Below, one piece after another: positions 3,420 to 45,279 of a stretch of DNA of 64,000 nt. The translations under genes were made by a program, and so were the position numbers. The notes under the pieces were generated by a model. That model did not search any database. It was given only the letters and a program-made list of their open reading frames with translations, and was not told where the DNA came from. The stretch is from Cellulomonas sp. APG4 (GTDB lineage: Bacteria; Actinomycetota; Actinomycetes; Actinomycetales; Cellulomonadaceae), in the NCBI RefSeq assembly GCF_009996735.1, contig NZ_JAACYI010000011.1, positions 1 through 64,000 of the forward strand, written 5' to 3'. Numbering within the stretch: position 1 is the first letter of the stretch; each line of letters opens with the position of its first letter.

Positions 3420-3485
3420 GAGATCGCACTCCCGCGCCGAGATCGCACGTCCAGCAGTGCGATCTCGGCGCAGAAGTGCGATCTC
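3420..3485. repeat. Nested inverted repeat, copy A of an intergenic palindrome family
   Basis: Outer arms GAGATCGCACT (3420-3430) and AGTGCGATCTC (3475-3485) enclose inner arms GCGCCGAGATCGCAC (3434-3448) and its perfect complement (3457-3471), with an 8-base loop. A C-rich tract precedes it. It sits between the convergent LacI and dehydrogenase genes, so it could act as a bidirectional terminator. A second copy with the same geometry lies at 45212-45279. Confidence 0.85.
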
Positions 3486-3500
3486 GTCGATGCGGAGCGG

Positions 3501-4862
3501 TCAGGCGAGCCCCAGGCGGAGGTCGGCGGTGCGGACCGGGAGGCCCGTCTCGAGCGAGGTGTTGCCCGCGATCCCGACGACCACGGACCGGACGCCGTCG
3601 AGCAGGCCCGCCGCTCGGCCGAGCGGGTCGTGGCCCGGGCCGCGGAACACGTCCGCGAGCATCCTGTCGTCGCCGCCGCCGTGGGCGCCCGAGCCCTCGG
3701 GGATCTCGACCTCGCGCGCGGCGCCCCAGTGCTGCTGCACCACGAGCCGCTGCCCGCGCGGCCGCACCGCGTCGTCGTCGTCGGCCTCGACCAGGCTCGG
3801 GTCGAGCACCGGGCGACCGTCCTTGCCGAGCACGACGGCGCCCCGCTCGACCACCTCGAGCTCGGCCCGCCCCCCGGTGCCGTTGACGCTCACGCGGTAG
3901 CCCTCCCAGGGGCTGTGCGCGTTGAGCGAGTAGGTCAGGGTCGCGCCGCGCGCGTAGTCGACGACCACCGCGAGGTTGTCCTCGATCGTGATGCCGCTCG
4001 TGAACACGTCGCGGTCGCGCAGGTACCCGTCGTGCTCCTCGGCCTGGAGGTAGAGCCGCTCGAGCCGCGGGTCGTCGCGCAGGTCGAGCGAGAACGGGTC
4101 CGGCCTGCCCGTGCGGCCCGTGCCGCGCGCCGGCCTGCGGATGAGGCCACGACGGCGTGCGTTCGCGGCTCCGTAGAACCGCAGCGCGCCGCTCGCGTAC
4201 ACCCGTGAGGGGAGGTCCGCGAGCCACCAGTTCACGAGGTCGAAGTGGTGGCTCGCCTTGTGCACCAGGAGGCCGCCCGACAGGTCCTTGCGTCGGTGCC
4301 AGCGCCGGAAGTAGTCGGCGCCGTGCATCGTGTCCAGCACCCACTCGAAGTGCACCGACGTGACCTCGCCGATCTCACCCGACGCGATCACCTCCTTGAG
4401 GGCGCTGTTGCGCGGCGAGTACCGGTAGTTGAAGGTCAGCACGATCGAGCGCCCGGTGCGCTCGGCCGCGTCGACGATGCGCCGCGTACCCGCGAGATCG
4501 GTCGTCATGGGCTTCTCGAGCACGACGTCGGCCCCCGCCGCCATGGCACGCGCCACGACGTCGGCGTGCGTGTGGTCGGGGCTCGTGACCACCACGGTCT
4601 GCACACCCTCGACGTCGATCATCTTCTCGAGCTGGTCGGGCTCGTAGCGCGCGGGGGCGTCGGCACCCGGCCGGGCCGCCGCCACCAGCTCGTCGTAGTA
4701 CGCGGCCCGCGCCGGGTTGGGCTCGCACCAGGCGGCGATCTCACCGACGTCGGCGTGCGGCCCGAGCAGTGCCTCGATGTACATCTGGGCGCGGTGGCCC
4801 GTCCCGACGACGGCGTACCGCCTCAGGTCCGTGCCGCCGGTTCCGCCCGTCGTGTGCGCCAC
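3501..4862 (-). CDS. Gfo/Idh/MocA-family sugar oxidoreductase (copy 1 of a paralogous pair)
   Basis: 453-residue NAD(P)-dependent dehydrogenase. The Rossmann motif VVGTGHR is near residues 19-25 and the conserved EKP lysine motif near 116-118, followed by the alpha/beta C-terminal substrate domain with the H-x3-D-like segment KASHHFDLVNWW. GTG 4862 is the start because AAGGAG precedes it by five to six bases; an ATG at 4913 would add 17 residues. It is the last gene of ABC operon A, so it probably oxidises or epimerises the imported sugar. It is strikingly similar over its whole length to the protein at 36473 (shared blocks such as FNYRYSPRNSALKEVIASG), indicating a fairly recent duplication. 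The substrate is unknown. Confidence 0.9.
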   Translation of the reverse strand: MAHTTGGTGGTDLRRYAVVGTGHRAQMYIEALLGPHADVGEIAAWCEPNPARAAYYDELVAAARPGADAPARYEPDQLEKMIDVEGVQTVVVTSPDHTHADVVARAMAAGADVVLEKPMTTDLAGTRRIVDAAERTGRSIVLTFNYRYSPRNSALKEVIASGEIGEVTSVHFEWVLDTMHGADYFRRWHRRKDLSGGLLVHKASHHFDLVNWWLADLPSRVYASGALRFYGAANARRRGLIRRPARGTGRTGRPDPFSLDLRDDPRLERLYLQAEEHDGYLRDRDVFTSGITIEDNLAVVVDYARGATLTYSLNAHSPWEGYRVSVNGTGGRAELEVVERGAVVLGKDGRPVLDPSLVEADDDDAVRPRGQRLVVQQHWGAAREVEIPEGSGAHGGGDDRMLADVFRGPGHDPLGRAAGLLDGVRSVVVGIAGNTSLETGLPVRTADLRLGLA

Positions 4863-4937
4863 GCGCGCTCCTTCGTCCGCGCGGGTCGTCGTCGACCCGC
4901 GACCGTGGTCCACATGCTGCCGTGCCGTGCGGCGGTC

Positions 4938-4972
4938 CCGCGGGGCCGGTCGTCCCGTGACCGGCCCCGCGG
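4938..4972. terminator. Strong hairpin just after the system-A binding protein
   Basis: CCGCGGGGCCGGTC (4938-4951) pairs perfectly with 4959-4972 across a 7-base loop, nine bases past the stop of the binding-protein gene. There is no T-run. It may be an intrinsic terminator of the GC-rich type or an mRNA 3'-end stabiliser that lets the binding protein outnumber the downstream dehydrogenase. Confidence 0.6.
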
Positions 4973-4980
4973 AGCCGCGC

Positions 4981-6330
4981 TCAGCCCTGCGTCGCCGTCT
5001 CGACCTCGGCGATGAACTGCTCGGCCGCGTCCATCGGGCTCAGGCGCCCGAACAGGACCTCGGCGTTGATGCGCCGCGTGATCTCGGCGACCTCACCCGC
5101 ACCGACCGGCGGCACGGGGAGCCCGTCGACGATCTCGTCCTCGAGGTCCGTCAGGAACTCGGCCGAGTACTGGTCGACCTCGGCGAACTGGTCCTGCACC
5201 TCGGCGCGGACCTCGGTGTTGGCCGGCAGGCCGCGGTCGGACAGCAGCAGCTCGGCCGCGGCCGGGTCGTTGAGCAGGTAGTCCACGAGCGTCGCGGCCG
5301 CCTCGGGGTACTCGCTCGTCGCGGAGATCGAGTAGAACATCGCGGGCTTGAAGTACATGCCGGTGCGCTCGTGCTCGGACTCGCCCGGGTGGCGGAGCAG
5401 CACGAGGTCGCGGCCCGCCGCATTGGTGATCGCACCCAGCTGGTTGGTCCAGAAGAACGACATCGCGCCCTGGTTGAGGCCCACGAGCGACTGCTCGGGC
5501 CCACCCGCGTCGATCTCGACCGTCTCGGCCGCCGACGGCGTGCCCCCGGTCTCCTGGAGACGCAGCGAGATCTCCCACCACTCGGCGAGCGTCTCGGGGC
5601 TGAAGCCGAGCGAGCCGTCCTCGTTGTAGAGGGCCTCACCGCGCTGCCGCGCGAAGATCGCGAAGCCCGGCTCGTTGAAGCCGTAGTCCTGCGCGCCGTA
5701 GACGCCGTCGGGCGTGTTCGCCGAGATCTCCGCGGCGATCTCGACGTAGTCGTCCCAGGTCCACGTGGAGTCGTCGGGCATCTCGACGCCCGCGTCGGCG
5801 AACACCTGCGGGTCGGCGACGATCGCGTACGCGTTGATGCCGGTGGGCACGCCGTACTGGCCACCCTCCATCTGGCCCGAGGCGAGGATCGACTCGTCGA
5901 TGTTGCTCAGGTCGAGGGTGTCGCCGAACTCGCTGAGGTCGGCGAGGACCCCGCGGGTGGCGTAGTCACGCAGGTAGCGCTCCTCCTGCGTGATCACGTC
6001 GGGGGCGTCGCCGCCCGCGACGGTGGTCGCGAGCTTGTCCCAGTAGCCGCCCCAGTCGGTGAAGTCGGGCACCACGGTGATGTCCGGGTGCTCCTCCATG
6101 AAGTTGTCGAGCACCTCCTGGGTGAGCTCGTGGCGGGTGTCCGAGCCCCACCACGAGAACTTGATGGTGGCCTCGCCCTCCTCGCCCTCGGCGGGCTGCT
6201 CGGCCTCGGGCGTGTTGTCCACGGGATCCTGCGCGCAGGCGGTCAGCGCCATGACTGCTGCGGCGCCGAGCGCGACCACGCGCAGCGTGCCGCGTGCGGG
6301 CCGGGAGTGGGTACGGGTGCGGTGAGTCAT
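4981..6330 (-). CDS. Sugar ABC transporter substrate-binding lipoprotein, system A
   Basis: 449-residue extracellular solute-binding protein of family 1 (maltose/oligosaccharide type). The N-terminal Arg/His-rich signal peptide ends in the lipobox LTAC, with Cys32 as the predicted lipidation site, followed by an acidic Glu-rich linker. The mature protein begins with the family-typical IKFSWWGSDTRHE. GAGGAG lies five bases before the ATG. It captures an oligosaccharide outside the cell for the permeases at 6529-8497. It is paralogous to the binding proteins at 40292 and 60552, sharing segments such as YGVPTGIN and a C-terminal LFGRLSPMDAAEQ. The 198-base gap to the upstream permease gene and the hairpins on both sides suggest that its mRNA level is tuned separately. 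Confidence 0.93.
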   Translation of the reverse strand: MTHRTRTHSRPARGTLRVVALGAAAVMALTACAQDPVDNTPEAEQPAEGEEGEATIKFSWWGSDTRHELTQEVLDNFMEEHPDITVVPDFTDWGGYWDKLATTVAGGDAPDVITQEERYLRDYATRGVLADLSEFGDTLDLSNIDESILASGQMEGGQYGVPTGINAYAIVADPQVFADAGVEMPDDSTWTWDDYVEIAAEISANTPDGVYGAQDYGFNEPGFAIFARQRGEALYNEDGSLGFSPETLAEWWEISLRLQETGGTPSAAETVEIDAGGPEQSLVGLNQGAMSFFWTNQLGAITNAAGRDLVLLRHPGESEHERTGMYFKPAMFYSISATSEYPEAAATLVDYLLNDPAAAELLLSDRGLPANTEVRAEVQDQFAEVDQYSAEFLTDLEDEIVDGLPVPPVGAGEVAEITRRINAEVLFGRLSPMDAAEQFIAEVETATQG

Positions 6331-6495
6331 CGTGCTCCTCGATGGTGGGTCGACGGGGCGGTGACCCGCGGGCCGGCAGCCTGCGGGGTGGTGCGCCGAC
6401 CTGGCCGGTGGTGCGGCCGGTCGGTCGTGCGGACGGGTGCGCTCGTCGGTGGGCGCTTCCCGGGGATGACGTCGGTCCTTTCCCTTCCGCGAGAC

Positions 6496-6525
6496 CCGGG
6501 GGCCGCCGACGTCGTCGGCCCCCGG
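6496..6525. terminator. Near-perfect 30-base palindrome after the system-A permease pair
   Basis: CCGGGGGCCG (6496-6505) pairs with CGGCCCCCGG (6516-6525), and the 10 bases between are themselves almost palindromic around GACGTC. It lies three bases beyond the permease stop codon. It likely attenuates or processes the transcript between the permeases and the binding protein gene. Confidence 0.6.
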
Positions 6526-6528
6526 ACC

Positions 6529-7557
6529 TCACTTGATGCCGGTGGTGGCGATGCCCTTGACCAGGTACTTCTGGCCGAAGAGGAAGACGAGGAAGATCGG
6601 GACGAGCGACACGATCGACATCGCGAAGAGCGAGCCCCACGAGCTCGCACCCGTCGAGTCGACGAACGTACGCAGCGCGACCGGGACCGTGTACATGTCC
6701 GGGTTGGTCAGGAAGATCAGCTGGCTGAAGAAGTCGTTCCACGTCCAGATGAACGTGAAGATCGCCGTCGTCGCCAGCGCGGGCGTCGCGAGCGGCAGCA
6801 TGATGCGGAAGAAGATCCGCGCGTGGCCCGCGCCGTCGATGTGCGCGGCCTCGTCGAGCTCGCGCGGGATCCCGCGGAAGAACTGGACCATCAGGAACAC
6901 GAAGAACGCGTCCGTGGCCAGCAGCTTGGGCACCACGAGCGGGAGGTAGGTGTTGATCCAGTCCAGCTGGGAGAACAGGATGTACTGCGGCACGATCACC
7001 ACGTGGATCGGCAGCATGATCGACATCAGCATGATCGCGAACCACAGCTTGCGACCGCGGAAGTTGAGCCGCGCGAACGCGTACGCCGCCATCGAGCACG
7101 AGATCAGGTTCCCGAGCACCGCACCGGCCACGATGATGAACGAGTTCATCAGGTAGTGGCTGAACGGGTGCAGCAGCGCGTCCCAGCCCACGGTGTAGTT
7201 CGACAGGTCGATCTCGCTCGGGATGAGCGCGGGGTCGCGGAAGATCAGCGCATTCGGCTTGAACGAGCTCGCGAGCATCCAGAGCAGCGGGTACAGCATC
7301 ACGAAGCCGACGGCGATGAGCATGCCGTGCTTGACCAGGCTGCGGGCCCGGCTCGCCCACGGCGACCGGCCGGCCGCACGGCGCGTGCCGCGACCGCCCG
7401 TGTCGTCCGCGGCCGGCGGGACGGGGACGGCCGGGGCCGCCGGGTCCTGGAGCGCGGCGACGGCGGACGGTGCCGGTGCGGGGCGCTGGTCGACGCCTGC
7501 GACGGAGCCGTCGCGGCCTGCGGAGGAGGGGCTCGTGCCCTCGGTGCGCTCAGTCAT
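6529..7557 (-). CDS. Sugar ABC transporter permease (MalG/UgpE type), system A
   Basis: 342-residue inner-membrane permease. About 75 N-terminal residues are a Pro/Ala-rich, probably disordered cytoplasmic extension, longer than in most relatives. Six membrane segments follow. The cytoplasmic EAA loop reads ELDEAAHIDGAGHARIFFRI, the contact site for an ABC ATPase. Its ATG overlaps the last codons of the partner permease by 8 bases, so translation is likely coupled; no good Shine-Dalgarno precedes it. The C-terminus GIATTGIK is typical of MalG-like proteins. With the permease at 7550 and binding protein at 4981 it forms a CUT1-type importer. No ATPase is encoded nearby. Confidence 0.93.
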   Translation of the reverse strand: MTERTEGTSPSSAGRDGSVAGVDQRPAPAPSAVAALQDPAAPAVPVPPAADDTGGRGTRRAAGRSPWASRARSLVKHGMLIAVGFVMLYPLLWMLASSFKPNALIFRDPALIPSEIDLSNYTVGWDALLHPFSHYLMNSFIIVAGAVLGNLISCSMAAYAFARLNFRGRKLWFAIMLMSIMLPIHVVIVPQYILFSQLDWINTYLPLVVPKLLATDAFFVFLMVQFFRGIPRELDEAAHIDGAGHARIFFRIMLPLATPALATTAIFTFIWTWNDFFSQLIFLTNPDMYTVPVALRTFVDSTGASSWGSLFAMSIVSLVPIFLVFLFGQKYLVKGIATTGIK

Positions 7558-8497
7558 TGTAGAAGACCCAGTACTTGGAGAGCAGGAAGTTGACCGCGGT
7601 CATCGCCGCGACGATCGCCAGGAGCAGCCAGGCCATGCCCGAGGCGTACCCCATCCGGAAGTTCTCGAAGCCCTCCTTGTAGAGGTACAGCGTGTAGAAC
7701 ATCGTCGAGTCGACCGGCCCGCCGGTGCCGCCGCTGACGACGAACGCCTGGGTGAACGACTGGAACGCGCCGATCACCTGCAGCACCAGGTTGAAGAAGA
7801 TGATCGGCGTGAGCAGCGGCACCGTGATGCTCACGAACTGCCGCAGCTTGCCCGCACCGTCGATCGACGCCGCCTCGTAGTACATGTCCGGGATCTGCCG
7901 CAGGCCCGCGAGGAAGATGATCATCGGGGAGCCGAAGGTCCACACGTTGAGGATCACGAGCGTCCCGAGGGCGTAGTCCGGGTGCGAGACCCAGCCCTGA
8001 CCCTGGATGCCGAAGAACCCGAGCACCTGGTTGATGAGGCCGTCGGTGCCGAAGATCTGCCGCCACAGGATCGCGATCGCGACGCTGCCGCCGAGCAGCG
8101 ACGGCAGGTAGTAGACCGAGCGGTAGATGGCGAGCCCTCGCAGCCCGCGGTCGAGCAGGAGCGCGAGCCCGAGCGCCGCGGCGAGCTGCAGCGGGACCGA
8201 GACGAAGACGTAGGTGAACGTCACGCGCAGCGAGTTGTGCAGCCGCGTGTCCCCGAGCATCCGCTCGTAGTTCTCGAAGCCGATCCAGTTGGGCGGCTGC
8301 AGCAGGCTGTAGTCGGTGAACGACAGGTAGAGCGAGGCGATGAGCGGGCCGGCCGTGATGAGGAAGAGGCCGATGAACCACGGCGCCATGAAGAACAGGG
8401 CCGCCTTGTTGTCACCCCGCTCGACGGGAGCAGGGGTCGCCTTGACGCCCTTGCTCCTGCGCAGGGACGCGAGCTCGCCGAGGGCGGCCACGGTCAC
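7550..8497 (-). CDS. Sugar ABC transporter permease (MalF/UgpA type), system A
   Basis: 315-residue membrane protein with six predicted segments and the EAA loop YYEAASIDGAGKLRQFVSI. The first membrane helix follows a short charged N-terminus (around residue 33, AALFFMAPWFIGLF). The GTG at 8497 is the only start compatible with the open frame. This is the promoter-proximal gene of the minus-strand operon 8497-3501. The 276-base gap to the divergent fusion gene at 8774 holds the operator GGAAAGCGCTATCC, which probably controls both directions. Substrate unknown; the uronate genes across the divergent promoter suggest a uronic-acid-containing oligosaccharide, which is inference. Confidence 0.93.
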   Translation of the reverse strand: MTVAALGELASLRRSKGVKATPAPVERGDNKAALFFMAPWFIGLFLITAGPLIASLYLSFTDYSLLQPPNWIGFENYERMLGDTRLHNSLRVTFTYVFVSVPLQLAAALGLALLLDRGLRGLAIYRSVYYLPSLLGGSVAIAILWRQIFGTDGLINQVLGFFGIQGQGWVSHPDYALGTLVILNVWTFGSPMIIFLAGLRQIPDMYYEAASIDGAGKLRQFVSITVPLLTPIIFFNLVLQVIGAFQSFTQAFVVSGGTGGPVDSTMFYTLYLYKEGFENFRMGYASGMAWLLLAIVAAMTAVNFLLSKYWVFYND

Positions 8498-8672
8498 CGC
8501 CCCCCGGAGGGTCGGGGTGGTGTCGCGCGTCCTGCCGCGACGTGCCTGCTGAAGGACATCCGGTGCTCCTCGTGATCGCCCTTGATCGGTGGTGGCTGCC
8601 GTGCCGCCAGAGTCCGGCCGGCGCGACCCTCGTCGCCGTTCCCGAGGACCGAGATCCCTGCGGCGCGAAGGT

Positions 8673-8686
8673 GGAAAGCGCTATCC
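8673..8686. promoter_or_regulatory. LacI-type operator GGAAAGCGCTATCC
   Basis: Palindrome centred on AGCGCT with one mismatch, in the divergent region between ABC system A and the DUF6807 fusion gene. One of five sites fitting GGNAAGCGCNTTCC (also 14397, 17193, 25710, 61917). Likely bound by a LacI-family protein, possibly that at 14504 or 2366. Confidence 0.7.
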
Positions 8687-8773
8687 ATCTTCTGATACAA
8701 CTTTGGTACCAGGCGCCGAGAAGTGATGTCAACCACATCGGCGCCCCGGAGCACCTCGAGGGAGCGGAGCACC

Positions 8774-12615: not shown

Positions 12616-12635
12616 CCCGTCCCCGCCCCGTCCCC

Positions 12636-12840
12636 GGCCCAAACGTTCGAATGCGTACGTGTGCGCAGATGGGCTCGTCCAGTACGGCCCACTGCGCACG
12701 TGAGTTCGCATCTGGGCGACGCCCGGCTTCGCTCGACGGCCGGCTGCGACCAACGCCGCCGCAGACGCGAACCTCTGCGCGAAGATGGGCGTTCAGTACG
12801 TCCCAACATGTGCACATGTTCGCTTTCGAACGTTTGGGCC
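12636..12840. repeat. About 205-base element bounded by long inverted repeats
   Basis: GGCCCAAACGTTCGAA at 12636-12651 is perfectly complementary to 12825-12840, and the match continues imperfectly for about 20 more bases inward. Inside are a hairpin (GTGCGCA...TGCGCAC, 12661-12700), the 16-base palindrome AACATGTGCACATGTT near 12795, and a direct repeat of the pattern AGATGGGC-N4/6-AGTACG-N-CCCA (about 12667 and 12784). It fills the gap between the convergent uxaA and uxaC genes. It may be a large terminator/stem structure or a MITE-like remnant. No coding capacity was found. Confidence 0.75.
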
Positions 12841-12885
12841 CCGCTGGGCCCTGCCCGGGCCCTGCCGGGCCTGCGGGGTGGCCCG

Positions 12886-14328: not shown

Positions 14329-14396
14329 CGATGTACCTCCGTGTGAAACAGATGAAACGCACGTCTCCGCACATGGTCGCGTCCGGGCGCGCTCGT

Positions 14397-28896: not shown

Positions 28897-28936
28897 CAAG
28901 GGCCCCCGGCCGTCACCTGACGGCCGGGGGCCCTTG
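28897..28936. terminator. Perfect 18-base-pair hairpin terminator
   Basis: CAAGGGCCCCCGGCCGTC (28897-28914) and its exact complement (28919-28936) enclose the loop ACCT, 20 bases past the glycosidase stop. It is the strongest stem in the window, without a T-run, and separates the glycosidase transcript from the LacI gene. Confidence 0.85.
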
Positions 28937-35087: not shown

Positions 35088-35156
35088 CCCGCCGAGGGGC
35101 CCGGGTCGCGGAGAGGCCGAGCAGCGGCACTCCACCCGCGGCGCGCGCCGTGGCGA

Positions 35157-35186: not shown

Positions 35187-35205
35187 CGGCCACGGAGGCC
35201 ACGCG

Positions 35206-36450: not shown

Positions 36451-36472
36451 CGCGGCGTGAGGTGGCGGGCCG

Positions 36473-37816
36473 TCAGAGGGGGAGGTCGAGCGAGGCGACG
36501 TCGACGCGCTCGCGGGCGCGCATGGACTCGTTGAGGGCGAGACCCACGGCCACCGAGGCCAGCCCGTCGCGGTAGCCGGCGCGCTTGCCGAGCGGGTCGG
36601 GGGCTGTGCCGCGGAACACGTCGTGCAGCAGCAGCGCGTCACCGCCGCCGTGACCCCCGTCGGAGTTCACGATCGACACCAGCTCGGCCTTCTCCCAGTG
36701 CCGCTGCACCGTGAGCCGCTCGCCGCGCCGGCGCACGTCGTCGTCCGCGGTGTCGTCGACCACCGAGCTCGCGTCGAGCACCAGGCGACCGTCCGGCCCC
36801 GGGAGCACCGCGGCGCGCTCGACGACCTCGAGCTCGGCGCGGCCCTCGGTGCCGTTGACGCTCACCCGGTAGCCCTCCCACGGGCTGTGCGCGTTGAGCG
36901 AGTACGTCATCACGGCCCCGCGCTCGTAGCCGACCATCGCCGCGAGGGTGTCCTCGATCGTGATGCCGGGCGCGAAGACGTCGCGGTCGCGCAGGTAGCC
37001 GTCGTGCTGCTCGGCGTCCCAGTACAGGCCCTTGAGCTTGGGGTCGGTGCGCAGGTCGAGCGCGAACGGGTCCGTCGACGGCGGGTCCACGGTGCCGCGC
37101 CCCGGGCGCTCGCCCAGGCCGCGCGCCCGCGCGTTCGCGTCGCCGTAGAAGTTCAGGCCACCCGTCGCGAACACCCACGACGGCGTGTCCGCGAGCCACC
37201 AGTTCATGAGGTCGAAGTGGTGGGTCGCCTTGTGCACCGCGAGCCCTGCCGAGTGCTCCTTCTCGCGGTGCCAGCGGCGGAAGTAGTCGGCGCCGTGCAT
37301 CGTGTCGAGCACCCACTCGAAGTGGACGGCCGTGACCTCGCCGATCCGGCCCGAGGCGATGACCTCCTTGAGGGCGCTGTTGCGCGGCGAGTAGCGGTAG
37401 TTGAACGTCAGCACCACCGAGCGCCCGGTCTCCTGGGCCGCCCGGGTGATCGTGCGGCAGCCCTCGGCGTCCGTGGTGAGCGGCTTCTCGAGCACGACGT
37501 CGACCCCGGCGTGCAGCGCGCGCGACGTCATCTCGGCATGGGTCCAGTCGGGGCTCGTGACGACGACGGCGTCGAGCTGCTGCTCGTCGACCATGCGCTC
37601 GAGCTGGTCCGGGGTGTACCGCGCGGGCGGGGTGCCGCCGTGCCCGCGCACGAGCGCGTCGTAGTGGTCGGCGCGCGCCGGGTTGGGCTCGCACCACGCG
37701 GCGAGCTCACCCACCTCGGCGTGGTCGGTCAGCAGCGCCTCGACGTACATCTGCGACCGTGCTCCGGTGCCGACGACCCCGTAGCGCCGTCGTCGGTCGG
37801 TGGCCTGCTCAGTCAT
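36473..37816 (-). CDS. Gfo/Idh/MocA-family sugar oxidoreductase (copy 2 of the paralogous pair)
   Basis: 447 residues. Rossmann motif YGVVGTGARSQMYVEAL at residues 12-28 and VVLEKPLTTDAEG near 110. The C-terminal domain carries HKATHHFDLMNWWLAD and the block LTYSLNAHSPWEGYRVSVNG (as MTYSLNAHSPWEGYRVSVNG here), almost identical in the protein at 3501. GAGGAG precedes the ATG by four bases. It is the third gene of the operon binding protein / six-hairpin enzyme / dehydrogenase. The duplication of dehydrogenase plus binding protein between this operon and system A implies related substrates. The precise sugar is unknown. Confidence 0.9.
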   Translation of the reverse strand: MTEQATDRRRRYGVVGTGARSQMYVEALLTDHAEVGELAAWCEPNPARADHYDALVRGHGGTPPARYTPDQLERMVDEQQLDAVVVTSPDWTHAEMTSRALHAGVDVVLEKPLTTDAEGCRTITRAAQETGRSVVLTFNYRYSPRNSALKEVIASGRIGEVTAVHFEWVLDTMHGADYFRRWHREKEHSAGLAVHKATHHFDLMNWWLADTPSWVFATGGLNFYGDANARARGLGERPGRGTVDPPSTDPFALDLRTDPKLKGLYWDAEQHDGYLRDRDVFAPGITIEDTLAAMVGYERGAVMTYSLNAHSPWEGYRVSVNGTEGRAELEVVERAAVLPGPDGRLVLDASSVVDDTADDDVRRRGERLTVQRHWEKAELVSIVNSDGGHGGGDALLLHDVFRGTAPDPLGKRAGYRDGLASVAVGLALNESMRARERVDVASLDLPL

Positions 37817-37930
37817 GGTGCTCCTCGTGGTGTGGTGCGCGCGCCGGGCGGCGCGTCGGACGTGCGGTTCGACGTGGTGCGGACGGTGGGGCGGGACGGC
37901 GACGGTCGCGTCGCGGGCGGTGCAGCGCGG

Positions 37931-40207
37931 TCACGGCGCCCGGACGAACCCCTCGTGCCTGGCCACCCAGGTGCCGTCGTCGGGAAGGCCTGGCGGGGCG
38001 CCGTCGGTCGCGGGCGTGCCGTCCCATCCGCCCACCATGAGCGCGAGGGCCGCGAGCAGCCCGCCGTTGCCGGGCAGGTAGACGGGGAGCTCATCGGTCT
38101 GGTGGTTGTGGCCGTTGGGCAGGTGCGTGTTCTTGGCGACGGGCAGCAGCAGCGCGTCGACGGCGGTGGCCGGCTCGCCCAGCCGGGCCGCGGTCATCGC
38201 GAGGGCCGGGTAGTCCCAGCCCCACGTGCTCGGCCAGTCCCAGTCGGCGAGCACGTCGTGCAGCGTCGCGCGCACCACCTCGCGGTCGAGCAGCCCCGTC
38301 TCGGGGATCACGCCGAGGCCGTAGACCATCGACGGGTGGTCGTGCCGCAGGGTCCACGGCTCGACGCCGACCGCGGCGTAGCGCCCGTCGCGCACGGTCG
38401 GCGGGACGAGACCGGCGCGCACCTCGTCCCAGCGCGGCTCACGCGGCAGGCCCGCCCGCTCGCGCCACTGCTGCGCGACGTCGAGGGCCCACGCCCAGGC
38501 CGCGAGCTCGAACGGTGGGTCCACCACGCGGTCGCGGATCTCGACGTAGGACTCCTGCGCCGGGATCAGCGGCGGACCGAGCCCGTAGCGCCCGTCGGCC
38601 CGCGGCTCGACCACGTCGGCCATGAACCGCGCCGTCTGCTCGACCAGCGGGGCGTGGTGCGCGACGTCGAGGCCCGCGCGCCGGAGCAGCTCGGCGAGGT
38701 GGATCACGTGCGGCTGCTGCCACAGCAGGAACGGGCCGATGTCGCTCGGGCTCTCGCGCCCGTCGGGCCCCACCTGCTTGGGCCAGCGCGCGCCGTCGTA
38801 GCCCTGCAGCCGCGCCGTCTGCTGCGCGAGCGGGAGCACGCGGTGGTACCAGCCCATGCTGCGCTCGAGCAGCTCCGGCCGCCCCCACAGCGCGAAGTGC
38901 GCGGCGTGCCACCAGTGCATCTCGAGGTGGAACCGGCCGCGCCAGCTGTTGCACGTGAGCCCGGTCTCCTGCGGCGGCAGCGAGCCCGCGCACTGGATCG
39001 CGGTGAGGTACTGCGACAGCACGGCCCGGCGCTCGAGCTCGGGCGCGCGCGGGTCGCTCGAGCCCGAGAGGTCGAGCGCGGCGCCGCTGCGCCAGAACGC
39101 GGGCCAGTGCGCGCGGCTCGCCGCGAGCACGTCGTCGACCGACGGCGGCGCGAGCGGGTCGGTGCGCACGTCGCGGGGGGCGACGTCGCCGTCGGGCCCG
39201 GGCGAGAACGCGAGCACCAGGTCCAGGCGCGTCCCGGTCGGCACGACGGCGACCTCGTGGGCACCCGTGCGCTCGACACGCGCGTCGGTGCGCAGGCCGA
39301 CCACGTAGGTGGGTGTGGGCGCACCGTCGAGCACGCGGTGCACGACGGCGCCGTCGGGCACCGCCTCGAGGCGGGTCTCGTGCCGCTCGGGGGACGACCA
39401 GTCGGCCGCGTTGCCCCAGGCCTGCGACCCGTAGGGGAAGGCGAGACGCACGACGACGTCGTCCTGGGCACGCGGTGCGCCGTCGCGGGCACCGAGCCCC
39501 GCCTCGGAGTCACCGTCCGCCGAGGCACCGACGGCGGGCGTCGGGGCCGTCGCGGTGGCGGTGGCGAGCGGGAGGCCGTCGCGCGCCTCGATGCGCACCG
39601 CGATCGCGTCGAGCTGCGGGTGGCACGCCGTCGTGACCGCAAGGGCGCGACCCGCGAGCTCGAAGCGGCTCTCGACGATGCCCGTCCAGGGGTCGAGCAC
39701 CTGGTCCACCGCCCGCAGCTCGGACGGCGAGGGTGCCCGCAGGGGCCCGGAGCCGCCACGTGCACCCCCGCCGTCGGGGCCCTCACCGCGACCGGCCGCG
39801 GCCCGGGTCACCAGCCCGGCCCGCACCAGGTCGAGCCGGTGAGGGTTCGCACGCAGCCAGCGGTGCGCCTCGTCGAGTGCGGAGTCGTCCGACCCGTCCT
39901 GGCGCGCGGCGTCGACGTAGCGCACCTCACCCCGCGACGTGCGGTACGGGCGCCGGCAGGCGTCCAGGTCCGCACCCTCGGGGCGCGGCACGGTGTGCCA
40001 ACCCCACTGCGACTGCGTGCTGAGCGACGTCCCGGCCGCACCACCGGCCGGATCCGCCACCCGGTACTGCTCCGGGAAGGTCTGCAGGCCCGTCGCGTCG
40101 ACGGTCGCGCAGAGCTCCCCGTTGCCGACCGAGAGGAACGCCGTGGGGTCGAGCGAGCTCACCGCGACGCGGTGCCGCCGGACCACGGCCTCACGGTCCA
40201 CCTGCAT
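37931..40207 (-). CDS. Six-hairpin glycosidase-like enzyme, 758 residues
   Basis: ATG 40207 is preceded by GGAGGTGGGGCAGG; an earlier start at 40240 would add 11 residues. Residues about 1-370 are a beta-sandwich-like N-terminal region, including a low-complexity Ala/Gly stretch around 150-175. The C-terminal half looks like an (alpha/alpha)6 barrel, with TGLTCNSWRGRFHLEMHWWHAAHFALWGR near the centre (Glu in LEMHWW a candidate acid), then RWPKQVGPDG, GPFLLWQQPHVIHLAELL and THLPNGHNHQTDELPVYLPG. This architecture recalls GH65/GH95-type enzymes, but I cannot assign a CAZy family. No signal peptide: it acts inside the cell on an imported oligosaccharide. It lies between the orphan binding protein and the dehydrogenase copy 2. 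Confidence 0.8.
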   Translation of the reverse strand: MQVDREAVVRRHRVAVSSLDPTAFLSVGNGELCATVDATGLQTFPEQYRVADPAGGAAGTSLSTQSQWGWHTVPRPEGADLDACRRPYRTSRGEVRYVDAARQDGSDDSALDEAHRWLRANPHRLDLVRAGLVTRAAAGRGEGPDGGGARGGSGPLRAPSPSELRAVDQVLDPWTGIVESRFELAGRALAVTTACHPQLDAIAVRIEARDGLPLATATATAPTPAVGASADGDSEAGLGARDGAPRAQDDVVVRLAFPYGSQAWGNAADWSSPERHETRLEAVPDGAVVHRVLDGAPTPTYVVGLRTDARVERTGAHEVAVVPTGTRLDLVLAFSPGPDGDVAPRDVRTDPLAPPSVDDVLAASRAHWPAFWRSGAALDLSGSSDPRAPELERRAVLSQYLTAIQCAGSLPPQETGLTCNSWRGRFHLEMHWWHAAHFALWGRPELLERSMGWYHRVLPLAQQTARLQGYDGARWPKQVGPDGRESPSDIGPFLLWQQPHVIHLAELLRRAGLDVAHHAPLVEQTARFMADVVEPRADGRYGLGPPLIPAQESYVEIRDRVVDPPFELAAWAWALDVAQQWRERAGLPREPRWDEVRAGLVPPTVRDGRYAAVGVEPWTLRHDHPSMVYGLGVIPETGLLDREVVRATLHDVLADWDWPSTWGWDYPALAMTAARLGEPATAVDALLLPVAKNTHLPNGHNHQTDELPVYLPGNGGLLAALALMVGGWDGTPATDGAPPGLPDDGTWVARHEGFVRAP

Positions 40208-40231
40208 CCTGCCCCACCTCCCCACGGATGT

Positions 40232-40253
40232 CCGTCGCACTCCTGTGCGACGG
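40232..40253. terminator. Hairpin after the orphan binding protein
   Basis: CCGTCGCAC (40232-40240) and GTGCGACGG (40245-40253) form a perfect 9-base-pair stem with loop TCCT, in the 84-base gap after the binding-protein stop. A second, looser pairing (GCCCGCG near 40254 with CGCGGGC near 40279) lies between it and the stop codon. Likely attenuator or 3'-end stabiliser, as in system A. Confidence 0.55.
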
Positions 40254-40291
40254 CCCGCGCGGCGCCGTCGGGCACCACGCGGGCCGGCGCG

Positions 40292-41641
40292 TCAGGAGAT
40301 CGCCGTCGTGACCTCGACGACCAGCTGCTCGGCCGCGTCCTCGGGTGTGAGCTGGCCGAACAGCACGGACTCGTTGAGCCGCTTGAGGATGTCCGGCGTC
40401 TCCGTGGAGCCCGTGGGGCCCACCACGAAGTCGCCGTCGACGAGCGGGCCGATCCGGTCGATGAACGCGTACTCGGCCTCGCGCACGGGGTCCAGGCCCT
40501 TGCCGATGAGGTACTCACGGATGTCGGAGTTCGCGGGGATGCCGCGGTCGGCACCGATGTGGTCGGCCGCGGCCTCGGCCGAGACGAGGAAGTCGACGAG
40601 CTTCGCCGCGGCCTCCGGGTGCTCGGTGTCCGCGCTGATCGTGTACAGCTGCGAGGCCTGGAGCCACATGGCCGGGCCCTCGTGGTTGGTCTCCCCCGGC
40701 GGGCGCAGCATGCCGAGCTCGACGCCCGCGGGCTCGCTAAAGGCGGTGAGCATGTTGGACCAGCCGAAGTGCATCGCGGCCTTGCCCTGGCCCAGCAGCA
40801 ACTGCTCGGGCGCGCCCTGCGCGGTCAGCTCGACCGTGAGGCTCGCGGGCGGCGTCGCCCCGCTCTCCATGAGCCCCGTCGTCATCTCCCACCAGTCGGT
40901 CGCGACCTCGGCGTCGAGGTTGAGCTCGCCGTCCGCCGTGTAGAGGCCCTGGCCGGTCATCTGGTTCGTGTAGAGGTCGAGCGTCTCGGCGACCGTCGGG
41001 TCGTTGAGCGCGTAGCTGCCCTCGGGGAGGTTCGCGCTGAGCTCGTTCGCCACCTCGACGAAGTCGGGCCAGTCCCAGCTGTCGTCGTCGGGCACCTCGA
41101 CGCCGGCCTGCTCGAACAGCTCGGGGTTGTAGATGAGGCCGTAGGTGTTGACGCCGGTCGGCACGCCGTACTGCGTGTCGTCGAAGTAACCGTTGGAGAG
41201 CGCGCCCTCGTCGAGCTTCGACAGGTCGAGGTGCTCGGAGACCGTGCTCAGGTCGAGCAGCGCGCCGCGCGCCCCGTACTCGCGCGGGTAGGCGCCGCCC
41301 ATGGTGATGACGTCGGGCTCGTCGCCGGCCGCGACCGAGGTCGAGATGCGGTCGAAGTACGCCTCGAAGTCCGCGAACTCGGTCTCGACCGTGATGTTCG
41401 GGTTCTCGGCCATGAAGGCGTCGACGGCGGCGTTCGTGATGGCGGCGCGGTCCTCGTTGCCCCACCAGGCGAACCGGATGGTGACCTCCTCGTCGCCTCC
41501 GCCGTCGCCCGCGGGCTCGTCGGCCTCGGCGTCGCCGCCGCCGCACGCCGCGGTCAGCAGCAGGGCCGCCGCCAGAGCTCCGGCGCCCAGGGTGCTGCGG
41601 GTGCGTCGGCCGCGGGTGGCCGTCCCTCGTTCGGATCGCAT
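40292..41641 (-). CDS. Sugar ABC transporter substrate-binding lipoprotein without adjacent permeases
   Basis: 449 residues from ATG 41641, with AGGGAGGA seven bases upstream; open frame upstream is not used. Signal peptide with lipobox LTAAC and Cys33, then a Gly/Asp/Glu linker. The mature part starts VTIRFAWWGNEDRAAITNAA and aligns along its length with the system-A binding protein (RYGVPTG-type segment YGVPTGVNTYGL; C-terminal LFGQLTPEDAAEQL). No permease genes accompany it: the operon continues with the six-hairpin enzyme and dehydrogenase copy 2. It may feed the permeases of system A or C, or a pair elsewhere. Two palindromes (41691 and 41757) lie upstream, indicating dual regulation. 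Confidence 0.92.
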   Translation of the reverse strand: MRSERGTATRGRRTRSTLGAGALAAALLLTAACGGGDAEADEPAGDGGGDEEVTIRFAWWGNEDRAAITNAAVDAFMAENPNITVETEFADFEAYFDRISTSVAAGDEPDVITMGGAYPREYGARGALLDLSTVSEHLDLSKLDEGALSNGYFDDTQYGVPTGVNTYGLIYNPELFEQAGVEVPDDDSWDWPDFVEVANELSANLPEGSYALNDPTVAETLDLYTNQMTGQGLYTADGELNLDAEVATDWWEMTTGLMESGATPPASLTVELTAQGAPEQLLLGQGKAAMHFGWSNMLTAFSEPAGVELGMLRPPGETNHEGPAMWLQASQLYTISADTEHPEAAAKLVDFLVSAEAAADHIGADRGIPANSDIREYLIGKGLDPVREAEYAFIDRIGPLVDGDFVVGPTGSTETPDILKRLNESVLFGQLTPEDAAEQLVVEVTTAIS

Positions 41642-41690
41642 GTGCTGTCCTCCCTGCCGCGTCGTTGCGGCTGTCGCCCATCCCACCTGA

Positions 41691-41702
41691 TGAATCGATT
41701 CA
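41691..41702. promoter_or_regulatory. LacI-type operator TGAATCGATTCA
   Basis: Perfect 12-base palindrome, 50 bases before the binding-protein start at 41641. Fits TGAAWCGNTTCA, the sites found at the rhamnose operon and lldD. Confidence 0.75.
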
Positions 41703-41756
41703 CCCGCTCGACCGACGCGGGCTGGGGCCGTCGTCGACAAGGGGGGTCTTCGTGCT

Positions 41757-41770
41757 TTACACCGGTGTAA
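41757..41770. promoter_or_regulatory. LacI-type operator TTACACCGGTGTAA
   Basis: Perfect 14-base palindrome between the LacI gene (ends at 41880) and the binding-protein gene. Shares the ACCGGT core with the site at 43048. Likely bound by the LacI protein encoded at 41880-42902. Confidence 0.75.
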
Positions 41771-41879
41771 GTGGAGCATACGGACGGGGGTGTGGTCAAT
41801 GCCCCAGGACCAGGGAAGGCGCGCTCCGGCCACCTGCGCGCCGACTCCCCGATCGGGCCGGCCAGCGGACGGAGTTGCC

Positions 41880-42902
41880 TCAGCCGGGGCGAGTCGAGGA
41901 CGCGCGGACGCGGAGCACGCAGTCGGCGACCACCTCGGGTGCCGGCTGGTCGGCGGGAACAGGGCCGTTGCGCAGCCGGTCGACCAGCAGGTCGACCGCC
42001 GTCCGCGCGATGAGCTCACGGTCCGGGTCCACGGTCGTGAGGCTCGGCCGCGTGAAGCGCCCCTCCTCGATGTCGTCGAAACCCGTGACCGCGACGTCGT
42101 CCGGCACGCGCAGGCCGCGGTCGTGCAGCACGCTCATCGCGCCGAGCGCGAGCACGTCGTTGAGCGCGACCACGCCGTCCACCTCGAGCCCGCGGTCGAG
42201 CACCGCACGCATGGCCTCCGCGCCCGTCGCGCGCGTCCACGCGAGCGCCTCGCCCGTACGGTGCGGGTCGTGCTCGAGGCCCGCACCCTCGAGGGCCTCG
42301 AGGAACCCGCGCGTGCGCAGCGCCCCCGCACCCACGCCCTCGCGGTCGAAGGTGCCGATGAGCGCGAGCCTGCGCCGGCCCAGACCGAGCAGGTGCTCTG
42401 TCGCGGCGCGCGCCCCGTCGACGTTGGCCATCGCGACGTGCGGCACGCGCCCGTGCAGCGCGCGCTCACCGAGCAGCACCATCGGGAAGTCGACCTCGAG
42501 CACAGGGGCGTCACCCGCGCGCAGGCCGAGCGGCGAGAGGATCAGCCCGTCGGTCATGCGTCGGCGCGCGCTCGTGAGGACCTCGAGCTCGCGATCGCGG
42601 CTGCCGCCGGTCTGCTCGATCAGCACGGTGTAGCCCTGCGCACCCGCGGCGTCGATCACGGCGTCGGAGAGCTCGGCGAAGTACGGCAGGCGCAGCTCGG
42701 GCACCGCGAGCGTGATCATCCCGGTGCGCCCCAGGCTCAGGCTGCGGGCGGTGAAGTTCATCTGGTACCCGAGCTCGTCGATCGCCGCCCGCACACGCTC
42801 GCGCGTCGTGGGGCTGACGTGCGCGAAGTCGTTGACGACATTGGAGACGGTCTTGACCGAGACCCCCGCGACCCGGGCGACGTCGCGCATCGTGACGGGC
42901 AC
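41880..42902 (-). CDS. LacI-family transcriptional regulator
   Basis: 340 residues from GTG 42902 (MPVTMRDVARVAGVSVKTVSNVV as the DNA-binding helices, residues 1-23). Asn in TVSN sits where many relatives carry Arg, and is shared with the regulator at 54492, while the preceding residues (SVK versus SLG) differ. The sensing domain begins near residue 62 (MITLAVPELRLPYFAELSDAV) and contains VVALNDVLALGAM and VTGFDDIEEGRFTRPSLTTV. It lies between GH5 (divergent) and the binding-protein operon (same strand downstream). The two palindromes with ACCGGT cores, one on each side, are its likely targets. The inducer is probably a glucan- or mannan-derived sugar; inference. Confidence 0.9.
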   Translation of the reverse strand: MPVTMRDVARVAGVSVKTVSNVVNDFAHVSPTTRERVRAAIDELGYQMNFTARSLSLGRTGMITLAVPELRLPYFAELSDAVIDAAGAQGYTVLIEQTGGSRDRELEVLTSARRRMTDGLILSPLGLRAGDAPVLEVDFPMVLLGERALHGRVPHVAMANVDGARAATEHLLGLGRRRLALIGTFDREGVGAGALRTRGFLEALEGAGLEHDPHRTGEALAWTRATGAEAMRAVLDRGLEVDGVVALNDVLALGAMSVLHDRGLRVPDDVAVTGFDDIEEGRFTRPSLTTVDPDRELIARTAVDLLVDRLRNGPVPADQPAPEVVADCVLRVRASSTRPG

Positions 42903-43014
42903 GCGAGCCTCCTCGTCCGGACGGCCCGGGCCCGCCCGGCGCGGGACCGCTCAGGCTCCGGTGCCGGTCACTATCCCACCGCCGTGGGCCCGACGGCGCG
43001 TGCGGCACGCGGCC

Positions 43015-43044
43015 TGGACACGCCTCACCCGCCCTGCCTAGGCT
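43015..43044 (+). promoter_or_regulatory. Putative GH5 promoter
   Basis: TGGACA (43015-43020), an 18-base spacer and TAGGCT (43039-43044). The transcription start would fall in the operator at 43048-43063. Confidence 0.55.
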
Positions 43045-43047
43045 CTC

Positions 43048-43063
43048 TGGTAACCGGTTACCA
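43048..43063. promoter_or_regulatory. LacI-type operator TGGTAACCGGTTACCA
   Basis: Perfect 16-base palindrome immediately downstream of a -10-like TAGGCT and 78 bases before the GH5 start. Placed between GH5 and the divergent LacI gene at 42902, its probable regulator. Confidence 0.8.
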
Positions 43064-43140
43064 CTCGCACTCGCATGGCCGACGCGGGAAGCACCGGCCA
43101 CACTCGACGGCGCAGCGCTGCGCCGAGCCCAGGAGGACCG

Positions 43141-44523
43141 ATGGACTGGATCCGCGTCGACGGCGACCGGCTCGTGGACGAGGCAGGCCGCACCGTGCTG
43201 CTGCGCGGCGTCGGCCTCGGCGGCTGGATGACGATGGAGAACTTCATCACCGGCCACCCCGCGACCGAGTCGCAGATGCGGCGCGCGACCCGCCGCGTGC
43301 TGGGCGACGAGGCCTACGAGGCGTTCTTCGAGACCTTCCTGACCGAGTTCTTCGCGGACGCCGACGCCGCCCATCTCGCGTCGCTCGGCGTCAACGCCGT
43401 CCGCGTGCCGTTCAGCTACTTCCACCTCGAGGACGACGACGCCCCGTTCGTGATCAAGGAGGAGGGGTTCCGGCACCTCGACCGCGTGGTGCGCACGCTC
43501 GCCGCGCACGGGATCTACGCGATCCTCGACCTGCACGCGGCACCCGGCTGGCAGAACCAGCACTGGCACAGCGACAACCCGAACGGCTGGGCGTCGTTCT
43601 GGCGCCACCCGCACTTCCAGGACCGCGTGGTCCACCTGTGGGAGGCGATCGCCGACAGGTACCGCGACGAGCCCGCCGTGGCCGGCTACAACCCCCTCAA
43701 CGAGCCCTCCGACCACACGGGCGAGGTGATCGGCCCGTTCTACACCCGCCTCGAGGCCGCGATCCGGCGCATCGACCCACGCCACGTGCTGTTCCTCGAC
43801 GGGAACCGGTACTCGACCGACTTCTCGATGTTCGACCGGCCGTTCGACAACGCCGTCTGGACAGCGCACGACTACGCGTTGCCGGGCATCGCGAACCCGA
43901 GCCGCTACCCGGGCGAGACGCGTGGCAAGCACTTCGACGCCGCCGTCGTCGAGCAGACCTACCTGGCCCGCACCGAGGTGATGCGACGCACGGGGACACC
44001 GGTGTGGGTGGGCGAGTTCGGGCCGACGTACGTGGGCGACGCCGAGCGCGTCGAGGGCGCGTACCGGCTTCTCGACGACCAGCTCGACGTCTACCGGCGG
44101 CACGGCGCGAGCTGGAGCCTGTGGACCTACAAGGACATCGGGGCGCAGGGACTCGTCACCGTCGACCCCGCGAGCCCCTACCTCGAGCGCATCCGGCCGG
44201 CGCTCGAGAAGAAGGAGCGCCTGGGCGCCGACTCGTGGGGCGGCTCGGAGGCTCACACGCGCCACGTGCTCGAGCCGGTCGAGCAGCTGCTCGCGACCGA
44301 GTTCCCGGACTTCGACCCCTACCCGTGGGGCGCCAAGCCGTGGCTCAACGTGCTGGTGCGGCACATCCTGCTCGCGGAGCCGCTCGTCGACGAGTTCGCC
44401 GCCACCTTCCGCGGCCTCGACGCCGACGGCGCGGCCGAGCTCGCGCGCTCGTTCGCCTTCGACAGGTGCGTCGAGCGGACCCGGCTCTCGGCGCTGCTGC
44501 GCCGCCACCTGGCCCACGACTGA
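43141..44523 (+). CDS. Glycoside hydrolase family 5-like enzyme, intracellular
   Basis: 460 residues from ATG 43141 with AGGAGG four bases upstream. The (beta/alpha)8 clan-A fold is marked by LRGVGLGGWMTMENF (residues 22-36), ILDLHAAPGWQ, the acid/base Glu in YNPLNEPSD (about residue 189) and the nucleophile Glu in VWVGEFGP (about 297). There is no signal peptide, so it hydrolyses imported oligosaccharides rather than polymer. The C-terminal about 100 residues are a helical extension. Subfamily cannot be told: exo-beta-1,3-glucanase-like and beta-mannosidase/glucosidase-like subfamilies share these motifs. It is solitary, divergent from a LacI gene with a perfect operator at its promoter. Confidence 0.85.
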   Translation: MDWIRVDGDRLVDEAGRTVLLRGVGLGGWMTMENFITGHPATESQMRRATRRVLGDEAYEAFFETFLTEFFADADAAHLASLGVNAVRVPFSYFHLEDDDAPFVIKEEGFRHLDRVVRTLAAHGIYAILDLHAAPGWQNQHWHSDNPNGWASFWRHPHFQDRVVHLWEAIADRYRDEPAVAGYNPLNEPSDHTGEVIGPFYTRLEAAIRRIDPRHVLFLDGNRYSTDFSMFDRPFDNAVWTAHDYALPGIANPSRYPGETRGKHFDAAVVEQTYLARTEVMRRTGTPVWVGEFGPTYVGDAERVEGAYRLLDDQLDVYRRHGASWSLWTYKDIGAQGLVTVDPASPYLERIRPALEKKERLGADSWGGSEAHTRHVLEPVEQLLATEFPDFDPYPWGAKPWLNVLVRHILLAEPLVDEFAATFRGLDADGAAELARSFAFDRCVERTRLSALLRRHLAHD

Positions 44524-44564
44524 CCGAGCCTTGACACGCCGTTGACGGGACGAAGCCCCAGGTC

Positions 44565-44637
44565 AAGACCGTATTTCGCGGCCAGCCCCTGCGTGACGCA
44601 CGTCACCCGGGCGGCTGATCAACCTGGGGCCACGCGT
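44565..44637. other. Gap between GH5 and the PQ-loop gene: inverted repeat and Crp-like palindrome
   Basis: The 293-base stretch 44524-44816 holds no gene. CCCCAGGT and ACCTGGGG form widely spaced inverted arms (about 44566 and 44629), and GTGACGCACGTCAC (44593-44606) is a perfect palindrome with the GTGA-N6-TCAC layout of Crp/GlxR-type sites. The rest is C-rich leader without clear signals. Confidence 0.4.
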
Positions 44638-44816
44638 GGCCGAAGATGTGGGTGCCGCGGTCGCCGACGACGCGACGCGGCACCCCCGCCGTTCCCCCTC
44701 GCTGTGCCCTGCCTTCCCGCAGTACCCACCCGCAGTACCACCCCCACCGTTCCACCTGCACCCGGCGATCCCGGGTCCGTCCGGGGCGCCCGCGCGCCCC
44801 ACCGCCCGGAGCACCC

Positions 44817-45173
44817 ATGCACGCGCTCACCGAGATCCTCGGCCTGCTCGCCTCCCTCACCTCGTTCATCCTCTGGGTGCCCCAGGGCCTGCGCGTCTGG
44901 CGCGCGCGGCGCGCCCCGGCGTCGCTCACGGGGCTGGCGGTGAGCACCCAGGTGATCTCGCTGATCGGCAACGTGCTGTGGGCCGCCTACGGCGTGCTCA
45001 TCGGCTCGTTCTGGGTGGGTGCGCCCGTCGTGGTCAACGTCCCGATCCTGCTCATGACGATCGTCGTGCTGAGGCGCGCGCGCCGCGCCGCCGCGCTCCC
45101 GACGACGAGCGAGCCCGGTCCCCTCGACGGCGCCACGACCCCCGAGGTCCCCGAGGTCGCCCTCGCCGCCTGA
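44817..45173 (+). CDS. Small PQ-loop (SemiSWEET-like) membrane protein
   Basis: 118 residues, ATG 44817 with GGAG five bases upstream. Three hydrophobic helices: about 5-22 containing the VPQ motif (FILWVPQGLRVWRARR), 40-60 and 66-85, followed by a charged, disordered tail. A single three-helix bundle with a PQ motif is the SemiSWEET/MtN3 half-transporter pattern. Bacterial members work as homodimers and several move sugars. The second helix reads TQVISLIGNVLWAAYGVLIG. The transported compound is unknown here. Upstream sequence is C-rich with no convincing promoter; downstream lies the nested palindrome copy B. Confidence 0.7.
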   Translation: MHALTEILGLLASLTSFILWVPQGLRVWRARRAPASLTGLAVSTQVISLIGNVLWAAYGVLIGSFWVGAPVVVNVPILLMTIVVLRRARRAAALPTTSEPGPLDGATTPEVPEVALAA

Positions 45174-45211
45174 CCCCGGCGAGCCGTTCGCTCTCCCCCA
45201 CCCCACCCCCG

Positions 45212-45279
45212 CGAGTTCGCACTGCCGCACCGAGGTCGCACGGCCGACGGTGCGAACTCGGTGCGCGGGTGCGAACTCG
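45212..45279. repeat. Nested inverted repeat, copy B of the intergenic palindrome family
   Basis: Outer arms CGAGTTCGCAC (45212-45222) and GTGCGAACTCG (45269-45279), inner arms GCACCGAGGTCGCAC (45227-45241) and GTGCGAACTCGGTGC (45250-45264, one mismatch), 8-base loop. Same geometry as copy A at 3420-3485, with A/T substitutions compensated on both arms and a similar C-rich lead-in. Confidence 0.85.

Follow-up and report, generated by a model that had tools for sequence, protein, structure and literature searches.

The window analysed here, a 64,000-nucleotide stretch of the Cellulomonas sp. APG4 genome (contig NZ_JAACYI010000011.1, positions 1 to 64,000), carries two intergenic copies of a 66-bp nested palindrome. 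Each copy consists of four 10-bp units, GAGNTCGCAC twice followed by its reverse complement twice, with a constant pitch of 19 bp and a central loop of 8 bases. We found that the two copies belong to a palindrome family dispersed through this and related genomes, and that the family is strongly associated with one gene family, encoding a putative nuclease of about 300 amino acids, which lies outside the window.

The initial annotation described nested palindromes with an 8-base loop, outer arms of about 11 bp and a C-rich lead-in, and all of these are present at both sites. It also held that the paired arms of the two copies change in step. This is true of the outer arms and fails for the inner ones: in copy 2 the inner left unit GAGGTCGCAC faces GTGCGAACTC, producing a single G-A mismatch (45235/45256), so that the inner arms are not a perfect 15 bp. 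As plus-strand single-stranded DNA, copies 1 and 2 fold at -33 and -32.7 kcal/mol, with z scores of -9.5 and -7.6 against dinucleotide shuffles; as RNA, both form strong hairpins that fold far better than shuffled sequences. Genes in the window and at the other loci were called with a self-written gene finder. Elsewhere in the window, a perfect 19-bp inverted repeat between tandem genes (28897-28936) forms a strong hairpin whose sequence is unrelated to the palindrome family.

Table 1. Coordinates of the two palindromes and their surroundings in the window.
Feature	Position	Strand	Remarks
Gene left of copy 1	2366..3400	+	stop codon 19 bp from copy 1; convergent with next gene
C-rich left flank of copy 1	3401..3419
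Copy 1	3420..3485		66-bp nested palindrome, GAGATCGCAC variant
Copy 1, direct units	3420-3429 and 3439-3448
Copy 1, loop	3449-3456
Copy 1, inverted units	3457-3466 and 3476-3485
Gfo/Idh/MocA oxidoreductase gene right of copy 1	3501..4862	-	15 bp from copy 1
PQ-loop gene left of copy 2	44817..45173	+	start uncertain: the same stretch is also opened by an ATG at 44646
C-rich left flank of copy 2	45192..45212
Copy 2	45213..45278		GAGTTCGCAC variant; 45212-45279 with one extra C-G pair
Copy 2, direct units	45213-45222 and 45232-45241
Copy 2, loop	45242-45249
Copy 2, inverted units	45250-45259 and 45269-45278
Gene right of copy 2	45321..45761	+	no Pfam match at E 0.01

A pattern for the inner palindrome matched 21 places in the APG4 genome (3.74 Mb, 48 contigs) at up to two mismatches and nine further places at three. 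Because the reversed control pattern matched 15 places at up to three mismatches, only the 21 were used; they overturn the possibility, raised in the initial annotation, that the genome holds only two copies. The outer units are present in all 21 and none lies inside a predicted gene. The gaps that hold them are 12 tandem, six convergent and three divergent, against 56, 14 and 30, respectively, among background gaps of at least 70 bp at the same loci. Compensated stem changes across these copies indicate that palindromicity is maintained, as had been proposed. Paired cells make up 90.5% of the alignment (88.5% in shuffles), both sides have changed in 9 of 29 pairs (5.6 in shuffles, with the observed level reached in 9 of 500), and the covariation score is 0.114, compared with 0.074 in shuffles, none of 500 of which reaches it, and at most 0.048 in slid controls. 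Further pair types show no excess (16 versus 15.8 in shuffles). Three of the four copies with GAGATC units carry the A in all four units; thus, part of the covariation marks subfamilies. One copy on APG4 contig C21 (L051:4110-4194) carries three direct units, a 19-bp unit having been duplicated exactly.

A covariance model gave 56 matches in the APG4 genome (both strands counted; 25 places examined). Among 58 relatives, 22 have matches at E 0.01, namely 21 of 36 from the same family and one of 22 from the same order. This model (R1) is biased to one variant, so the search for dispersed copies covered that variant. Among named genomes, a strict pattern scan matched one record, Actinotalea caeni (Cellulomonadaceae), at a locus encoding proteins close to those of the window (up to 82% identity). 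Across a collection of 119 elements from 21 genomes, the skeleton GAGNTCG-NNN, repeated four times, and its spacing are largely kept. The other bases vary between genomes, for example GAGTTCGCAC and GAGATCGCAC in APG4, GAGGTCGCAC in relative G018, GAGATCGACC in G025 and GAGTTCGCTG in G001. Three elements of G036 (L082, L163 and L165) measure 103-105 bp and combine the same outer units with a long extended inner stem and loop.

These 119 elements occupy 55 tandem, 46 convergent and 13 divergent gaps, with three at contig edges and two overlapping a predicted gene. Convergent gaps are enriched (46 of 119 copies versus 59 of 287 background gaps, the background including element-bearing gaps), and elements lie closer to gene 3' ends (median 43 bp) than to 5' ends (median 135 bp). 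By eye, copies cluster on contigs; ABC-transporter genes and other recurrent neighbours of the clusters were considered as linked genes and rejected as ordinary genes with no special link. Additionally, the flanks are compositionally asymmetric, the 18 nucleotides on the left being C-richer than the 18 on the right in 114 of 118 elements, compared with 89 of 164 control gaps. This C-rich-left, G-rich-right bias (118 elements, 21 genomes) holds in every gene orientation and fades slowly, over about 70 bp on both sides. It could reflect a target preference, or have been left by recurrent cycles of cutting and repair at the palindrome.

Copy 1 is absent from syntenic relatives. The Gfo/Idh/MocA oxidoreductase gene on its right, which anchored the empty-site test, has a close orthologue (81-85%) in six relatives, and all three that keep both neighbours (G018, G003 and G017) have an empty site when read from the sequence; in G003 the stop codons of the two neighbouring genes are 2 bp apart, with no element. 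Together with the many copies, their intergenic placement and the species-specific variants, this bears out the suggestion that these are dispersed elements resembling repetitive extragenic palindromic (REP) sequences. Between G018 and its close relative G005, three inspected copies are common to both and the other inspected copies have at least one diverged flank. Solo copies in this genome pair were rejected as a source of a clean boundary: two have a diverged flank and another occurs in both genomes. At one insertion place occupied in both genomes (L132:3019-3084 in G018, L135:3051-3116 in G005), the flanks are about 93% identical and the element differs much more, pointing to fast change or replacement.

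The initial annotation anticipated a linked REP-associated transposase (RAYT, or TnpA-REP) gene, and we found none in APG4 or its 36 family relatives. PF01797, the Y1/HUH tyrosine transposase family, has no match in these 37 genomes, in a search whose control genomes gave matches; it is present in two of 22 order-level genomes, neither with model-found elements. A RAYT link is thus rejected for the family genomes searched, and with it a RAYT gene flanked by two copies; a different gene family shows that arrangement instead. No fixed GTAG or CGTC tag appears in column counts around the 21 APG4 copies, nor, as judged by eye, around other variants.

The gene in question directly adjoins elements in G018 and G003, and on APG4 contig C21 pieces of a homologue lie between two palindrome copies. 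Homologues are present in 181 of 221 family genomes at E 1e-15 (APG4 included) and in 18 of 22 order-level genomes at E 1e-6. A skeleton detector was applied at threshold 36, at which 219 kb of reversed sequence gave no match and 13 of the 119 known elements score too low to be found. Of the 30 best homologue loci, 23 carry elements by this measure, and in 16 of these the elements flank the gene on both sides. By comparison, no elements were placed at 20 Pfam DUF559 loci, and 2 of 30 Gfo/Idh loci had them, including that of window copy 1.

A sequence-blind test, which required palindromes on both sides of a gene within 600 bp whose sequences match each other, gave a similar picture. Pairs were recognised at 24 of 30 and 11 of 20 family homologues, that is, 35 of 50 rows; two scoring genes are shared between the sets, leaving 33 of 48 distinct genes. 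At order level 13 of 30 homologues scored, as did 6 of 20 Pfam DUF559 loci, one G050 gene being common to these last two sets. None of 152 controls scored (29 Gfo/Idh genes and 123 other genes from ten loci; Fisher p ~1e-27 for family rows versus controls, a value that ignores genome relatedness, which inflates significance). The 123 control genes were those that scored above 30 in the gene finder and had 700 bp of room. This filter left out the L128 gene (score 27), which scores as paired and is counted among the homologues as L227. L228, at a contig end, is negative and not among the 24 of 30. A version with cruder gene bounds, run on the same kinds of sets, gave 22/28, 11/20, 10/29, 0/18, 0/28 and 0/105. 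Counts of palindromes on one side were dropped as a measure, since control genes score too (56 of 105) and matched pairs alone discriminate.

In 22 units selected for a palindrome on both sides, the left and right flanks of one gene share 84% identity on average, versus 51% across genes (highest 88%), and the own right flank is the best match to the left flank in 20. Direct and inverted comparisons give about equal identity, because the elements are palindromes. The inner spacing is 1025-1130 bp in 18 of the 22. The ends of units show an inverted extension of 1.71 bases versus 1.06 in shuffles (p 0.02), and no excess over shuffles was found at 115 copies. Paired palindromes were not found at a homologue on a Tsukamurella plasmid, and phage records contain no homologue at E 1e-6. 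At L215 and L225, and at the order-level loci L257, L266, L277 and L279, paired palindromes of about 58-76 bp with wholly different sequences stand around AbiEi/DUF559-type genes of other families. The palindrome-gene arrangement may be widespread in Actinobacteria.

Family databases give limited guidance to the protein. Eight homologues have only sub-threshold Pfam matches (MTES_1575 REase, DUF559, AbiEi_4 and AbiEi_1) and six have no match in NCBIfam; DUF559 was rejected as the defining family, with all eight scanned homologues below its cut-off or unmatched. PADLOC models of AbiEi match the APG4 homologue at E 3e-14. An AlphaFold2 model of the intact APG4 homologue (mean predicted local distance difference test score 93.6) resembles, in Foldseek, AbiEi (6y8q, E 5.6e-6) and Rv2827c (1zel, 1.9e-4), and also the homing endonuclease I-Bth0305I (3r3p, E 0.067, probability 1.00, template modelling score 0.74 over the target) and Vsr (E 0.18 and 0.47; 1cw0 with probability 0.91). 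A profile search of PDB sequences agrees weakly (3hrl, E 0.025; 3r3p, 0.46). Across 33 aligned homologues, S189, E192, R196 and the later E234-x-D236-G237 are invariant, and D223 is nearly so. These models suggest an AbiEi-like DNA-binding part fused to a Vsr/I-Bth0305I-like nuclease. No AbiEii nucleotidyltransferase or toxin-like partner is encoded among six neighbours of three units. As the linked gene has a predicted AbiEi-like fold and AbiEi proteins bind inverted repeats, the earlier suggestion that the palindromes are protein-binding sites is plausible.

In some genomes the dispersed copies follow the variant of the resident gene. Each dispersed copy was compared with 64 gene-flank elements (36 genome or unit entries) and its best match taken; the flank elements were not themselves used as queries, nor were the three long G036 elements or copies from genomes that have no flank entry. 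In APG4 (G000), 22 of 23 dispersed copies best match an APG4 gene flank. This genome has at least two linked genes and two palindrome variants: the homologue on contig C21 (L051:4220-5200), frame-disrupted or mis-assembled, is flanked by the main variant GAGTTCGCAC, and an intact homologue on contig C20 (C20:18858-19694, L289) by the ...CGTACATC variant. Nineteen dispersed copies follow the C21 variant, and three of the four copies in L136 (contig C44) follow that of C20. A flank of the same genome is also the best match for 9 of 11 copies in G018 and for the single copies of G001, G019 and G011.

We consider it, on balance, probable that both window palindromes are solo copies from a dispersed, REP-like family whose complete form is the AbiEi-Vsr nuclease unit. 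The observations behind this reading are the dispersal, the compensated pairing, the empty site of copy 1, the palindrome-gene pairing, the match between variant and gene in some genomes, and the predicted fold; binding, cutting and movement of the elements we infer. The complete form would be a unit of about 1.2 kb comprising a palindrome, one gene and a second palindrome. The AbiEi-like part may recognise the four-unit palindrome, as a duplex or as an extruded hairpin or cruciform, and the nuclease part would then cut at or beside it. Repair could copy the palindrome, or the whole unit, into new intergenic places. Solo copies would be non-autonomous copies, or remnants left after loss of the gene between its two palindromes.

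Several points weigh against this reading. No target-site duplication is seen: direct repeats average 2.46 versus 2.44 in shuffles at 115 copies, and 2.43 versus 2.46 at 21 units. Nuclease activity is predicted from fold and residues, and all Foldseek matches of the nuclease domain lie above E 0.05. No pair was recognised at 15 of 48 distinct family homologues or 17 of 30 order-level ones, and homologues of related genomes are not independent. G005 has copies and no homologue at E 1e-15; the locus of the G018 unit carries other genes in this close relative, which was therefore rejected as a clean empty site for the unit. Best matches to a same-genome flank are few in G002 (2 of 20), G003 (3 of 16), G048 (4 of 10) and G015 (0 of 1). 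Some of the G003 misses may stem from the similarity of the G003, G018 and G007 variants; G002 genuinely departs from variant matching. Finally, the reading frame of the APG4 gene flanked by the main variant is disrupted (or mis-assembled), which gives no ground for assuming present activity.

An explanation without movement is that the palindromes are operators through which the AbiEi-like protein represses its own gene, the dispersed copies being a regulon or decoys and the nuclease serving a separate defence function. Passages of PMC7319586 describe AbiEi and Rv2827c as binding inverted repeats of 23 bp that lie upstream of the genes encoding them, and both the PADLOC match and the fixed 19-bp pitch, which suits protein binding, favour such a role. 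However, operators would account for the upstream palindrome and not for the downstream palindrome or the dispersed copies. The latter lie nearer to gene 3' ends than to 5' ends, and copy 1 sits between convergent stops and is missing at three of three syntenic places. With no AbiEii-like partner among six neighbours of three units either, we regard this explanation as unlikely.

The elements could instead be passive hairpins, acting as bidirectional terminators or stabilisers of mRNA 3' ends and spread by replication slippage or template switching, with the gene unit a passenger or target. Their intergenic position near gene 3' ends, the enrichment in convergent gaps, the strong RNA hairpins and the 19-bp unit duplicated in L051 all agree with this, and hairpin-templated repair could yield compensated changes. 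Yet terminators, a role proposed in the initial annotation, fit poorly: no T-run follows the copy 2 stem in 45100-45400 or, judged by inspection, copy 1; the window gives no Rfam match at gathering scores; and 3 of the 21 APG4 copies, and 13 of 119 overall, lie between divergent genes. Passive hairpins also leave unexplained the pairs around one gene family, against 0 of 152 controls, and we find them decidedly improbable. Most doubtful of all is that these are ordinary ends of miniature inverted-repeat transposable elements or insertion sequences, mobilised by a DDE or other transposase of a common kind that is encoded elsewhere in the genome, with the nuclease gene as cargo. Palindromes bracketing one gene do resemble transposon ends, and solo copies resemble miniature elements, but many unrelated palindrome variants track one gene family, target-site duplications were not found, and the 37 family genomes contain no Y1 transposase (other transposase classes were not searched).

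Returning to the nuclease unit as the complete form, we see the arguments as evenly balanced on whether it represents a new class of prokaryotic selfish element, in which a single-gene AbiEi-Vsr mobiliser co-evolves with nested palindrome ends of about 60-75 bp, and solo ends spread REP-like through actinobacterial genomes. If true, the RAYT-REP arrangement would have been invented twice, independently. We know of no report that enzymes of the AbiEi-Vsr class move REP-like elements. REP-like palindromes without a known enzyme are a puzzle, and the AbiEi-nuclease gene is common and had no role in the literature searched; a search for work joining DUF559 with palindromes found none, with subscription journals and preprints largely outside its coverage. 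If palindromes and gene belong together, a single purified protein and a 66-bp DNA would suffice to put both puzzles to the test. Additionally, the many gene-palindrome pairs with different sequences offer a natural set for a protein-DNA recognition code.

Among known systems, the closest parallels are REP sequences, bacterial interspersed mosaic elements (BIMEs) and REPINs with RAYT, of the GTAG superfamily. As described in parts of PMC2817692 and PMC3733652, these are likewise short intergenic palindromes, many per genome, with compensated changes and clusters, and one gene family is flanked on both sides by palindromes whose variants match the resident gene. The enzymes are unrelated, however: the candidate here is an AbiEi-like part with a Vsr-like nuclease rather than a Y1/HUH tyrosine transposase, and the elements are 66 bp long with four units at a 19-bp pitch, show no GTAG/CGTC tag and number tens rather than hundreds of copies. 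CGTC-tagged REPs, which 'apparently lack a dedicated transposase' in the words of a passage of PMC3733652, share palindromic repeats in genomes without a linked RAYT; the present family differs in having no fixed CGTC tag and in having a candidate gene. The AbiEi antitoxin and Rv2827c, of type IV toxin-antitoxin systems, are alike in the fold of the first two thirds of the protein, and AbiEi binds inverted repeats (parts of PMC7319586). In contrast, the units described here would add a nuclease domain, have palindromes on both sides as well as dispersed, and lack a toxin partner at the three units inspected. The predicted catalytic fold is that of the EDxHD/Vsr-like homing endonuclease I-Bth0305I (PDB 3r3p), from which these genes differ in that no intron or intein is seen, in the AbiEi-like fusion and in the palindromes that bracket them.

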